DNA of 64,000 bases from Clostridiales bacterium (lineage in GTDB: Bacteria > Bacillota > Clostridia > Lachnospirales > Lachnospiraceae), in assembly GCA_021203365.1 (NCBI GenBank), contig JAJQBI010000041.1:1-64000 (forward strand), in the 5' to 3' direction. Below the pieces are notes generated by a model. It was not told the DNA's origin. It saw only the letters and a list, made by a program, of their open reading frames with translations, and did no database searches. A program made the position numbers and the translations under genes. Positions within the stretch are counted from its first letter, which is position 1. Each line of letters opens with the position of its first letter. Below are positions 34,679 to 40,104 of this stretch, in pieces.

Positions 34679-36058
34679 ATGTATCAGATAGATTTTCACA
34701 AACCTCTGCATATCCATTTTATTGGAATCGGCGGCATCAGTATGAGCGGACTGGCGGAAATTCTGCTGGAAGAGAATTTCCGCATCTCCGGTTCCGATTC
34801 CAAGGCAAGTCCGCTGACCCGTTCCCTTGAAGAAAGAGGTGTGCAGGTTTTCTACGGTCAGCGCGCTTCCAACATTGCAGAGGGAATTGATGTGGTCGTT
34901 TATACCGCCGCCATCCATCCGGATAACCCTGAATTTGCATGCGCAAAGGAAAAAGGCCTGCCCATGCTGACCCGGGCGGAGCTTCTCGGACAGATCATGC
35001 GCAATTATGAGACCTCCATTGCCGTCGCCGGCACACATGGAAAAACCACAACCACTTCCATGATCTCACATATTCTTCTGGAAGGCAGCTGCGACCCCAC
35101 GATCAGTGTAGGCGGCATTCTTCCCTCCATCGGCGGCAATATCCGTGTAGGCAGCTCCCAGACCTTTATCACGGAAGCCTGTGAATATACCAACAGCTTT
35201 CTGAGCCTTTATCCAACCATCGGCATTATCCTGAATATGGATGCGGATCATCTGGACTTTTTTAAGGATATCGACGATATCCGCCGTTCCTTCCGGAAAT
35301 TCGCGGAGCAGATCCCCGCGGACGGAACTCTGATCATCAATGCGGATACCGCCAGATATCAGGACATCCTCTGTGACCTGCCATGTCACAAAATCACTTA
35401 CGGGCTGGAGAATTCCGCGGATTATACCGCGTCCGATATCACGTGGGACAAATATGGTCATGCCTCCTTCACAGTTTTTATCCATGGTCAGAAGGCCGGC
35501 AGCTATTACCTGAAGGTACCGGGGATTCATAATGTATCCAATGCGCTGGCAGCCATAGCCGCGGCTCATATACTGAAGCTTCCGGAGCCGGTGATCATAA
35601 AGGGACTTGGCGGCTTTACAGGAACCGACCGGCGTTTCCAATATAAAGGAGAGGTAGGCGGTGTTACCATTATAGATGATTATGCCCATCATCCCACAGA
35701 GATCGAAGCCACCCTGCGCGCAGCCCGGAACTATCCCCACCGGAAAATCTGGTGCGTATTCCAGCCTCACACCTATTCCCGGACCAGAGCGCTTCTCCCG
35801 GAATTTTCCAGGGCACTGACTCTGGCAGACCATGTAGTGCTTGCAGATATCTACGCGGCCCGGGAAACCGATAATCTGGGAATCTCCTCAGAGGATCTTC
35901 AGCACGGTATTCAGGATCTTGGAACTCCCTGCGAATACTTTCCGACCTTTGACGAGATCGAAGCTTTTCTCCTGAGCAGCTGTGAACAGGGAGATCTGCT
36001 GATCACCATGGGCGCAGGAGATGTAGTTCTGATCGGTGAACACCTGCTTGGAAAATAA
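34679..36058 (+). CDS. murC: UDP-N-acetylmuramate--L-alanine ligase
   Basis: HFIGIGGISMSGLAEIL, VAGTHGKTTTTSM, DDYAHHPTEIEATL. Confidence 0.97.
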   Translation: MYQIDFHKPLHIHFIGIGGISMSGLAEILLEENFRISGSDSKASPLTRSLEERGVQVFYGQRASNIAEGIDVVVYTAAIHPDNPEFACAKEKGLPMLTRAELLGQIMRNYETSIAVAGTHGKTTTTSMISHILLEGSCDPTISVGGILPSIGGNIRVGSSQTFITEACEYTNSFLSLYPTIGIILNMDADHLDFFKDIDDIRRSFRKFAEQIPADGTLIINADTARYQDILCDLPCHKITYGLENSADYTASDITWDKYGHASFTVFIHGQKAGSYYLKVPGIHNVSNALAAIAAAHILKLPEPVIIKGLGGFTGTDRRFQYKGEVGGVTIIDDYAHHPTEIEATLRAARNYPHRKIWCVFQPHTYSRTRALLPEFSRALTLADHVVLADIYAARETDNLGISSEDLQHGIQDLGTPCEYFPTFDEIEAFLLSSCEQGDLLITMGAGDVVLIGEHLLGK

Positions 36059-36072
36059 ACATACGAAAAAGA

Positions 36073-36123
36073 CGGCATCTGTGACATCTTCTCTTCCCCT
36101 GAATGTCACAGGTGCCTTTTTTG
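36073..36123 (+). terminator. Intrinsic terminator of murC
   Basis: GGCATCTGTGACAT...ATGTCACAGGTGCC-TTTTTT. Confidence 0.85.
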
Positions 36124-36131
36124 AAAAAAAC

Positions 36132-36361
36132 TTTTCCACATCCCTGCGAAACCGGATTTTTCAACCCTCCTGCAGGTTATCCACATTATCCACAATGTTA
36201 TACACAATTTCAAAAAAATTTTTTTGTGGATTCCCATGTGTATAACCCACTTAACATAAATCGACAGGAATTTTTAACAAAATATCCATAAATATTACAA
36301 TTTCCTCACTTTTTCAGTTACCCATAATCACATCTCCACAAAGTTATCCACATTTTCCACA
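36132..36361. promoter_or_regulatory. DnaA-box cluster in AT-rich intergenic DNA
   Basis: Perfect TTATNCACA at 36177-36185, 36186-36194, 36198-36206, 36237-36245 (minus) and 36344-36352; near matches TTTTCCACA at 36132-36140 and 36353-36361. Confidence 0.8.
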
Positions 36362-36438
36362 TAATGCCACAAAAAGATCCCCACGTTCCCCCTTTCTTCC
36401 CCCTCCAAAATCCTCTATTCTCAACCTCCAAAACTTGT

Positions 36439-36713
36439 GATATAATGTGAACACTTAGTGAGCCCAAGCTTCCGGCGCAGGGCGAACTTAGTGTGAACTT
36501 ATGCCTGGACACTTAGTGCGTCCGAGCCTCAGCGACGGACAAACTTAGTGTCCATGGTATAATGTGAACACTTAGCCCAAGCCTTTGGCGCTGGGCGAGC
36601 TTAGTGTGAACTTATGCCTGGACACTTAGTGCGTCCGAGCCTCAGCGACGGACAAACTTAGTGTCCATGGTATAATGTGAACACTTAGCCCAAGCCTTCG
36701 GCGCTGGGCGAAC
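36439..36713 (+). repeat. Tandem iteron-like repeat array, about 115-bp unit, two full copies plus one partial
   Basis: TATAATGTGAACACTTAG repeats at 36441, 36558, 36671; nine CTTAG-centred motifs (ACACTTAG / AACTTAGTGT) spaced 25-33 bp. Confidence 0.9.
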
Positions 36714-36766: not shown

Positions 36767-37864
36767 ATGACCATGATTTCTCTGCAGAACGACTCCTCCC
36801 GGGAGGTAACCGTTCTGTCCAACTGTTTTATTGACGAATATATGCCCCGCGCAAACGGGGAGTTTGTAAAAGTATACATCTATCTTCTGCGCCTTCTCTG
36901 CTCTCCGGACGCCTCATTCTCCCTGGAGCAGATGGCGGACCGTCTTCTCTGTACGGAAAGAGATATCTTCCGGGCTCTGAAATACTGGGAAAGTGAACAG
37001 CTCATGGTCCTGCATTACGAAAAAGACCAGCAGCTGTCCGGAATCTCTATTCGCTCTCCCAGGATCCCGGATCTTCCGGAAGAAAAAGCGGATGCCCCTT
37101 CCCAGGAAGAAGAATATGAAACAAAGGTTCTCACAAAGTCCGCATCCGCTGCCTCCTCCCGTAAACAAAACGCACCGGGCGGCGACTCCGCACGGCTGAC
37201 GCCGGACCGAATCCGGGAGCTGCAGCAGGATGAGGACATCCGGCAGCTTCTATATATCGCAGAACAGTATCTGAACAAAACTCTGACCTCCACGGAAATG
37301 CAGAAAATCCTTTATTTTTACGACGAGATGCATATGTCCGCAGAGCTGATCGAATATCTTCTGGAGTACTGCGTTGGCAAAGGGCACAAAAGCATACGCT
37401 ACATAGAGACCGTGGCAATGGCCTGGACGGACGAGGGCATCACCACAGTAGAGGCCGCCAAGGAAACTGCCTCCCGTTTTTCCAAAGATTATTTTACCAT
37501 TTTAAAGGCCATGGGAATCACCGGGCGCAATCCGGTGGAGGACGAAATCGTTTTTATGGATACCTGGCTCCAGGAATATGGATTTGACATGCCGCTGATC
37601 CAGGAAGCATGCTCACGGACGGTTCTCGCCACAGGACAGGCAAGCTTTCAGTACACGGACAAAATCCTTGCCGGATGGAAGAAAAACAGGGTTCACACAA
37701 TGGAAGACATTCGCCGGCTGGACGCGGAGCATAAAAAAAGACAGCTGGAAAAATCACTTCCCCGCCAGAATGCGGTCTCCAAATCGCCAAACCGATTTAA
37801 CAATTTTCACCAGCGCCAGTATGACTTTGAGGAATACGAAAAGCGACTTCTGAATCAGTCATAA
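36767..37864 (+). CDS. DnaD domain protein (replication initiation/helicase loading)
   Basis: N-terminal winged-helix-like region and C-terminal DnaD domains (LTSTEMQKILYFYDEMHMSAELIEYLLEYCVGKGHKSIRYIETVAMAWTDEGI). Confidence 0.92.
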   Translation: MTMISLQNDSSREVTVLSNCFIDEYMPRANGEFVKVYIYLLRLLCSPDASFSLEQMADRLLCTERDIFRALKYWESEQLMVLHYEKDQQLSGISIRSPRIPDLPEEKADAPSQEEEYETKVLTKSASAASSRKQNAPGGDSARLTPDRIRELQQDEDIRQLLYIAEQYLNKTLTSTEMQKILYFYDEMHMSAELIEYLLEYCVGKGHKSIRYIETVAMAWTDEGITTVEAAKETASRFSKDYFTILKAMGITGRNPVEDEIVFMDTWLQEYGFDMPLIQEACSRTVLATGQASFQYTDKILAGWKKNRVHTMEDIRRLDAEHKKRQLEKSLPRQNAVSKSPNRFNNFHQRQYDFEEYEKRLLNQS

Positions 37865-37933: not shown

Positions 37934-38920
37934 GTGCCTTTACAGAATTTTCAATATGATGAGATCATGCGGGAATACAGCCGCAGGCAGGCTCATAACC
38001 GGCGGCTTCTGGAAGAACACAGGGCAGAGGCCTATAAGAAGCTTCCCCGTCTTCAGGAAATTGACAACGAGGTTGCCTCTCTTTGCACGGACAAAATTCG
38101 CCGGCTTTTTTCCGGAAAAAACAAGAGCACAGGCGATCTGAAAGAAGCCGTTGCACGGCTGTCCGAGGAACGTCGTCTTCTGCTCACCCGCAGCGGGTAT
38201 CCGGAGGATTACCTGGACATGCCCTGCAGCTGCCCCCTTTGTCAGGATACCGGCTATGTGGACGGAAAAAAATGTGTCTGCTTTCGCCGGGCGGAGATCG
38301 AACTCCTCTACGCACAGTCTAATCTGAAAGAAATTCTCGAAAAAGAAAACTTTGACCACTTTTCTTTTGAATACTATTCTGATACAATAAGGGACGAGGC
38401 CGTTGGACTCTCCGCGCGGGAAATGGCACGAAGAGCCTATGACACGGCCAGACGTTTTGTACAGAACTTTGATAACCGATTTGAAAACCTTTTTTTATAT
38501 GGCGACACCGGTGTGGGAAAAACCTTTCTTTCCCACTGCATTGCCCGGGAGCTTCTGGCCTCCGCACAGTGTGTTTTATATTTTTCCGCTTATGACCTGT
38601 TCGACGAAATGGCCGGAAGCACTTTTTCTGCAAAAGATAAGAATACAAATGAGGAACTGCTATACAGCTGCGATCTTCTGATCATCGATGATCTGGGCAC
38701 TGAACTTACCAACAGCTTTGTATCCTCCCGGCTTTTTCTGTGCATCAACGAGCGTATCATGCGCAGAAAGTCAACAATCATATCCACGAATCTGACTCTG
38801 AAGGATTTTTCGTCAACGTATTCCGAGCGAACCTTCTCCCGCATTGCCAGCAGCTATCAGCTGATTCGGCTGATCGGGAAGGATATTCGAATAGAGAAAC
38901 TATTTACAGGAGGAAAATAA
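37934..38920 (+). CDS. DnaC/DnaI-like helicase loader ATPase (GTG start)
   Basis: GGAGGG RBS before GTG; CPLCQDTGYVDGKKC zinc motif, GDTGVGKTFLSHCIA Walker A, DLLIIDDLGTE Walker B. Confidence 0.94.
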   Translation: MPLQNFQYDEIMREYSRRQAHNRRLLEEHRAEAYKKLPRLQEIDNEVASLCTDKIRRLFSGKNKSTGDLKEAVARLSEERRLLLTRSGYPEDYLDMPCSCPLCQDTGYVDGKKCVCFRRAEIELLYAQSNLKEILEKENFDHFSFEYYSDTIRDEAVGLSAREMARRAYDTARRFVQNFDNRFENLFLYGDTGVGKTFLSHCIARELLASAQCVLYFSAYDLFDEMAGSTFSAKDKNTNEELLYSCDLLIIDDLGTELTNSFVSSRLFLCINERIMRRKSTIISTNLTLKDFSSTYSERTFSRIASSYQLIRLIGKDIRIEKLFTGGK

Positions 38921-38922
38921 AG

Positions 38923-40104
38923 ATGGCACAGACAACTACGAAAGCCCTGACGACTCTTCCATTTGGAAGGCTGGGCCTGATTCCCATGGAAAACTGCCAG
39001 AGCCTCGGACAGAAGGTCAATGAATGGCTGGTAAAATGGCGTTCCCAGCGGCAGCATCCGGAAATGGATTCCTTTGCCTTCGAAGGATACAAACGAGATT
39101 CCTACACCATTCAGGTACAGACGCCCCGTTTTGGCTCCGGGGAGGCAAAATGTGTAATCAATGAATCCGTCCGCGGGGACGACATTTACATTATGACCGA
39201 TGTGAGCAATTACAGCATGGAGTATTCCATCGGACCATATACGAACCTGATGTCTCCGGATGATCATTTCCAGGATCTGAAGCGTGTCATTGCAGCCATT
39301 GGCGGCAAGGCGCGCCGCATCAATGTCATCATGCCCTACCTGTATGAAAGCCGTCAGACGCAACGGAACGGCCGCGAATCTCTGGACTGTGCCAACGCGC
39401 TTCATGAACTGGTGAGTATGGGAGTGGAGAACATTGTCACCTTTGACGCCCATGACGCCCGGATTCAGAATGTCACTCCCCTCCATGGCTTTGAAACCGT
39501 ACAGCCCGCCTATCAGTTTATGAAATCTCTTCTCAACGAGGAAGATGGTCTGCGCATTGACAATGATCATTTTATGGTTATCAGCCCGGACGAGGGCAGC
39601 ATGAGCCGCGCCATCTATCTCGCCAATATCCTCGGCATTAATATGGGAATGTATTACAAAAGGCTGGATTACGCCACCACTGTAAACGGCAGACATCCTG
39701 TAGCCGCCAACGAATTCCTGGGGCCGGATCTCGCGGGCAAGGATGTCATCCTCGTGGACGACATGATCTCCTCCGGCGATACGGTTCTGGAAACCGCCGC
39801 GCTCCTGAAGGGCAGAGGTGCAAGACGGGTCTATATATGTGCTACCTTCGGATTCTTTACAGACGGTCTGAAGAAATTCGATATCGCCCACGAAAAGGGC
39901 ACATTCGACCGGCTTCTCACCACCAACCTGGTATACCAGACTCCGGAGCTTCTGGCCCGCTCTTACTACATCGACTGTGACCTCAGCAAATATATCGCGC
40001 TGATCATCGATACACTGAATCATGACCTGTCTGTAAGCCACCTGCTGAATCCGGTTGACAGAATCACCCGCTGCGTAAACAAATATATGGCCAGATATAA
40101 ATGA
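38923..40104 (+). CDS. prs: Ribose-phosphate pyrophosphokinase family protein
   Basis: ATG at 38923 after AGGAGG; FDAHDARIQN, VDDMISSGDTVLETA PRPP loop; about 393 aa. Confidence 0.9.
   Translation: MAQTTTKALTTLPFGRLGLIPMENCQSLGQKVNEWLVKWRSQRQHPEMDSFAFEGYKRDSYTIQVQTPRFGSGEAKCVINESVRGDDIYIMTDVSNYSMEYSIGPYTNLMSPDDHFQDLKRVIAAIGGKARRINVIMPYLYESRQTQRNGRESLDCANALHELVSMGVENIVTFDAHDARIQNVTPLHGFETVQPAYQFMKSLLNEEDGLRIDNDHFMVISPDEGSMSRAIYLANILGINMGMYYKRLDYATTVNGRHPVAANEFLGPDLAGKDVILVDDMISSGDTVLETAALLKGRGARRVYICATFGFFTDGLKKFDIAHEKGTFDRLLTTNLVYQTPELLARSYYIDCDLSKYIALIIDTLNHDLSVSHLLNPVDRITRCVNKYMARYK

Follow-up and report, generated by a model that had tools for sequence, protein, structure and literature searches.

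The murC-dnaD intergenic region of the window examined here, a 64-kb stretch of Lachnospiraceae DNA, contains five perfect copies of the DnaA box, TTATNCACA, within 176 bp. What role might such a cluster play directly upstream of genes for helicase loading? The preliminary description of this DNA favored a regulatory or titration function. This choice is supported by the density of the boxes, by their conservation in the family, and by the position of the locus relative to GC skew and to dnaA. Moreover, two clusters of DnaA sites are found at a preserved distance from a predicted dnaD promoter, an arrangement that points to control of these helper genes by the initiator itself.

The boxes are organized as two arrays. 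The distal array (36177..36206, plus strand) consists of three head-to-tail boxes, TTATCCACA at 36177-36185, TTATCCACA at 36186-36194, and TTATACACA at 36198-36206; their starts are 9 and 12 bp apart, a spacing kept in relatives, and are located 264, 255, and 243 bp upstream of the predicted dnaD -10 element. The proximal array (36344..36361, plus strand) is made up of TTATCCACA (36344-36352) and TTTTCCACA (36353), 97 and 88 bp ahead of the same element; a second copy of TTTTCCACA is present at 36132. Between the arrays, an inverted box, TTATACACA, occupies 36237..36245 on the minus strand, at the same offset in many relatives of the genus. All boxes listed in the preliminary description are present in their places, and to these can be added a partial inverted box, TGTGGAT (36225..36231, minus strand), for which the genus alignment gives the consensus aTGTGGATT. 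The region between the arrays additionally features a companion motif, TTAACATAA (36251..36259, plus strand; consensus TnACATAA), that is conserved in the genus.

A genome-wide count of boxes, the check proposed at the outset, places the array far above background. The window contains 10 TTATNCACA sites compared with 1.85 expected from shuffles (6 in the largest of 100 shuffles), and half of the 10 are inside the 176 bp. The source assembly, a MAG of 3.13 Mb in 84 contigs that is 83.7% complete, has 140 sites (86 + 54), or approximately one per 22 kb, versus 22 + 28 for a reversed-pattern control. The abutting pair TTATCCACATTATCCACA occurs in just two places assembly-wide.

Profile matches bear out the dnaD- and dnaI-like genes first described downstream of the boxes. 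The upstream neighbor is murC (34679..36058, plus strand; TIGR01082, E 1.9e-141), which is followed by a terminator-like hairpin and T-run absent from the earlier account (36068..36122, plus strand; an inverted repeat with 20-nt arms, 85% complementary, ending in TTTTTT). This presumed terminator means that the dnaD operon would rely on its own promoter. A candidate sigma-A-type promoter, likewise newly recognized, is located at 36418..36446 on the plus strand, with TTCTCA at 36418, a 17-bp spacer, and an extended -10, TGaTATAAT (TATAAT at 36441-36446); the extended -10 motif is found in 71 of 104 family intergenics, compared with 0.9 expected. Downstream are dnaD, encoding a DnaD-domain primosome protein (36767..37864, plus strand; PF07261, E 2.1e-41; TIGR01446), and a gene for a dnaI/dnaC-like AAA+ helicase-loader ATPase (37934..38920, plus strand; NF005304, E 1.9e-107), which has weaker DnaI, DnaC, and DnaA AAA+ matches, all under their cut-offs. 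The last gene of the plus-strand run, a PRPP synthetase-like gene (38923..40104; NF005299, E 3e-159), is a presumptive member of the operon. The dnaD 5ʹ leader contains a 113-bp tandem repeat (36441..36713, plus strand) that forms strong hairpins (fold z = -10.2), and each unit repeats the -10 sequence. A pattern search found no copy of this repeat elsewhere in the assembly or in five relatives, and the sole match in an Rfam search of the leader, mir-2542, was below threshold and was taken as chance.

The boxes are kept upstream of dnaD in related genomes, as a test set by the preliminary description asked. At least three perfect boxes are present in 45 of 57 same-genus relatives, most of which share one layout: two forward boxes 9 bp apart, a third 12 bp on, an inverted box another 39 bp on, and then the second group. 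In 11 of the 57, boxes are wholly missing, so the control would be dispensable in them; in 10 of the 11, no more than 143 bp separate murC from dnaD. These short, box-less junctions belong to G050, G019, G002, G018, G049, G040, G058, G027, G003, and G031. The promoter motif is retained in at least one box-less locus of the genus (L097). The genus alignment was built from sequences chosen for perfect triple boxes, so box invariance within it is not evidence, and the unselected counts are those of the 57 relatives and of a survey of 109 other Lachnospiraceae genera. In that survey, murC adjoins dnaD in 108 genera, and at least one, two, and three boxes are present in 96, 75, and 55 genera, respectively. 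The intergenics of the 108 genera with murC-dnaD adjacency contain 281 boxes, compared with 2.7 expected under a first-order Markov model, and compact intergenics (125-151 bp) that retain two boxes hold them close to the promoter. Across 140 family genomes, 74 of 148 abutting double boxes among the matches listed fall within 900 bp of dnaD. The arrangement is restricted to the family, an assignment that follows search hits whose names are for the most part Lachnospiraceae. In a class-level sample, murC and two boxes were present in 4/4 Lachnospiraceae; among 64 other Clostridia, murC was not detected beside dnaD in any (by tblastn at E <= 1e-4, the cut-off that defines "not beside murC"), one box was found in 4, and two boxes were found in none.

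Other short motifs accompany the boxes in parts of the family. The companion motif TTTACATAA is found in 24 of 109 genera in the forward orientation and in 1 in reverse and is strand-specific, and the sequences TTTACGTAA/TTATGTAAA, akin to the TnACATAA consensus, are located near dnaA in relatives. In some genera, the stretch that separates the proximal boxes from the promoter has a recurrent half-palindrome, CCTTGATTTT, approximately 58 bp ahead of the -10. Spo0A boxes (TTCGACA) are near the array in 11 of 109 genera.

The placement of the boxes is consistent relative to the promoter. Upstream of the conserved dnaD -10, the proximal array is found at approximately 68-97 bp and the distal array at approximately 231-254 bp, and the distances are grouped at intervals of roughly 10 bp. 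When genus and family are pooled, the starts of the boxes are most frequent at 67-69, 76-78, 86-88, and 96-97 bp and at 231-233, 243-245, and 252-254 bp, a lattice on which the proximal boxes of the window also fall. In 26 of 47 genus loci, 68 or 69 bp separate the final box from the -10, whereas the distance from the -10 to the ATG varies from 36 to 326 bp. Across the family, the distance from box to -10 shows periodicity (best T 9.5 bp, R 0.67, p ~2e-11), with p values that are nominal because the sequences share ancestry and the period was picked after looking, and with some confounding from the 9-bp spacing of the repeated boxes, which alone yields a lattice. Leader length was tested for periodicity family-wide and none was found. 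The array-to-array distance in most genus loci belongs to classes of 164-169, 176-179, and 188-189 bp (167 bp in the window), and its best period across the family is 11 bp. As in a DnaA-regulated promoter, consensus boxes above background are combined with consistent placement relative to the (predicted) promoter.

The probable explanation of this architecture, as judged from sequence, is that DnaA, seated at both arrays, acts directly on transcription of the dnaD/helicase-loader operon, most likely as an activator, with titration as a secondary effect. DnaA would bind the distal head-to-tail array and the proximal array largely on one helix face, and the bound protein would contact or wrap the single extended -10 promoter, setting transcription of dnaD, the dnaI/dnaC-like ATPase gene, and probably the PRPP synthetase gene. 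Activation is likelier than repression because the boxes precede the -35 and leave it uncovered. In this position, and with distances that shift by approximately 10 bp, the array resembles activators that are required to lie on one helix face. Loader expression would then track DnaA, in its amount or its nucleotide state, and may have a role in the cell cycle. Given their consensus boxes and origin-proximal position, the arrays would titrate some DnaA too. A more specific version, offered tentatively, is that the Lachnospiraceae possess a family-specific, loop-forming DnaA transcription switch that gates loader supply by DnaA state.

DnaA-dependent promoters and DnaA-box clusters have been described in other bacteria. 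E. coli DnaA favors paired boxes 2-3 bp apart (PMC11317965), and in B. subtilis, DnaA activates sda and represses other promoters (PMC4447404). The sda promoter, one of the closest known systems, is also preceded by distinct sets of DnaA boxes, and boxes of both sets contribute to DnaA binding (PMC4447404); at the Lachnospiraceae locus, such binding is what we infer. Unlike sda, the Lachnospiraceae target is a helicase-loader operon, and the distance of its two arrays to the -10 is conserved in the family. The Caulobacter helicase gene dnaB, which has DnaA boxes (PMC8203912), also ties DnaA to expression of the helicase machinery; however, its product is the helicase and not the loader, its boxes are predicted, and the organism is an alphaproteobacterium. 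The same review does not mention dnaD. A literature search, mostly without subscription papers, yielded no account of dnaD being controlled by DnaA, and the literature examined does not name dnaD as a DnaA target in B. subtilis, which counts against such control.

The main competitor to transcriptional control is that the locus is purely a sink for DnaA, similar to datA or a B. subtilis DnaA-box cluster, that binds the initiator after early replication and delays re-initiation, its proximity to dnaD being incidental. The locus has the high box density outside oriC and the origin-proximal position of a titration site, with distance measured in relatives: dnaD is approximately 0.33-0.65 Mb from dnaA on the near-complete chromosomes of five relatives (G001, G038, G044, G029, and G052), in which, judged from the strands, it is head-on to the fork, and approximately 0.7 Mb away on a contig of G004. 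The boxes are consensus boxes, and B. subtilis clusters are additive in their effect on initiation (PMC5295017). Those clusters (Okumura 2012, cited in PMC5295017) are likewise intergenic, dense in TTATNCACA, and origin-proximal; however, dnaD, dnaB, and dnaI are missing from the B. subtilis regions listed in the literature examined, whereas the Lachnospiraceae boxes hold their place relative to a promoter. E. coli datA also has several boxes outside oriC, but it needs IHF and stimulates DnaA-ATP hydrolysis and is not described as a promoter element in PMC5295017. A sink gives no reason for a fixed spacing to the dnaD -10 with a free leader length, or for the retention of promoter-proximal boxes in compact intergenics. 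Transcriptional control is favored because of this conserved spacing, and pure titration is considered unlikely.

A second family-wide DnaA-box locus adjoins differing genes, a point in favor of titration. In the source assembly it is located at C74:41450-41479 (L157, L211; also L135-L157 and L367-L386), within a conserved block of approximately 200 bp that consists of a box, a box-box pair, TTTACATAA (in the genus), a GAACnnnnGTTTTG-like motif, and TTGAC. The companion motif TTTACATAA has a fixed offset of 41-42 bp in ten same-genus loci. The genes beside this second locus vary and include trxB, the gene for V-ATPase subunit D, and trmB, and an Rfam search with eight loci gave no match. This locus is a candidate titration or DnaA-remodelling site, and titration suits it better because it has no consistent neighboring gene. 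Three boxes within 85 bp at C31:4519-4603 of the same assembly (L210), between PTS enzyme I-like and radical-SAM-like genes (named from translations), possibly represent a third cluster.

The remaining alternatives fare worse. That some protein other than DnaA recognizes the boxes, or that they are functionless sequence inherited passively with the 3ʹ DNA of murC, is improbable. Adjacency to murC is as conserved within the family as the boxes, so the two are inseparable there; against this, the boxes match the E. coli/B. subtilis consensus perfectly, are keyed to the dnaD promoter, are kept from genus to genus at 100-fold the expected count, and share their motif with the flanks of dnaA in relatives. 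DARS promote nucleotide exchange on DnaA and contain IHF/Fis sites. A DARS-like reactivation site, or another locus that remodels the DnaA nucleotide state, would accommodate boxes in mixed orientation and a conserved companion motif (TTTACATAA) as a possible partner-protein site; with spacing keyed to a promoter, no partner protein identified, and DARS known from E. coli, this is a very doubtful reading. Least credible is an origin or backup origin, an origin-like element being one of the options named in the preliminary description: several boxes in both orientations lie beside A/T runs, but their spacing follows a promoter, GC skew stays negative outside two 2-kb windows and keeps its sign at 36 kb, and the association with dnaA/dnaN expected of oriC is absent from the locus. 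A search for dnaA in the source MAG (83.7% complete) did not find it, and 13 relatives have one dnaA each, with boxes upstream, where the flank suffices, and mostly in the dnaA-dnaN gap too. With a separate, classical dnaA locus in relatives and no change of skew sign, the reading as an ordinary origin was rejected.

For DnaA control of the loader operon, the preserved architecture yields simple quantitative predictions, in the form of 5- versus 10-bp shifts. B. subtilis DnaD inhibits cooperative DnaA binding (PMC5295017), so a DnaA switch on dnaD would make a two-way circuit, of which no description in other bacteria was come across. Almost no work on replication control in the Lachnospiraceae was found in the literature search. 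If the proposed control is true, one of the major gut bacterial families would couple helicase-loader transcription directly to its initiator.
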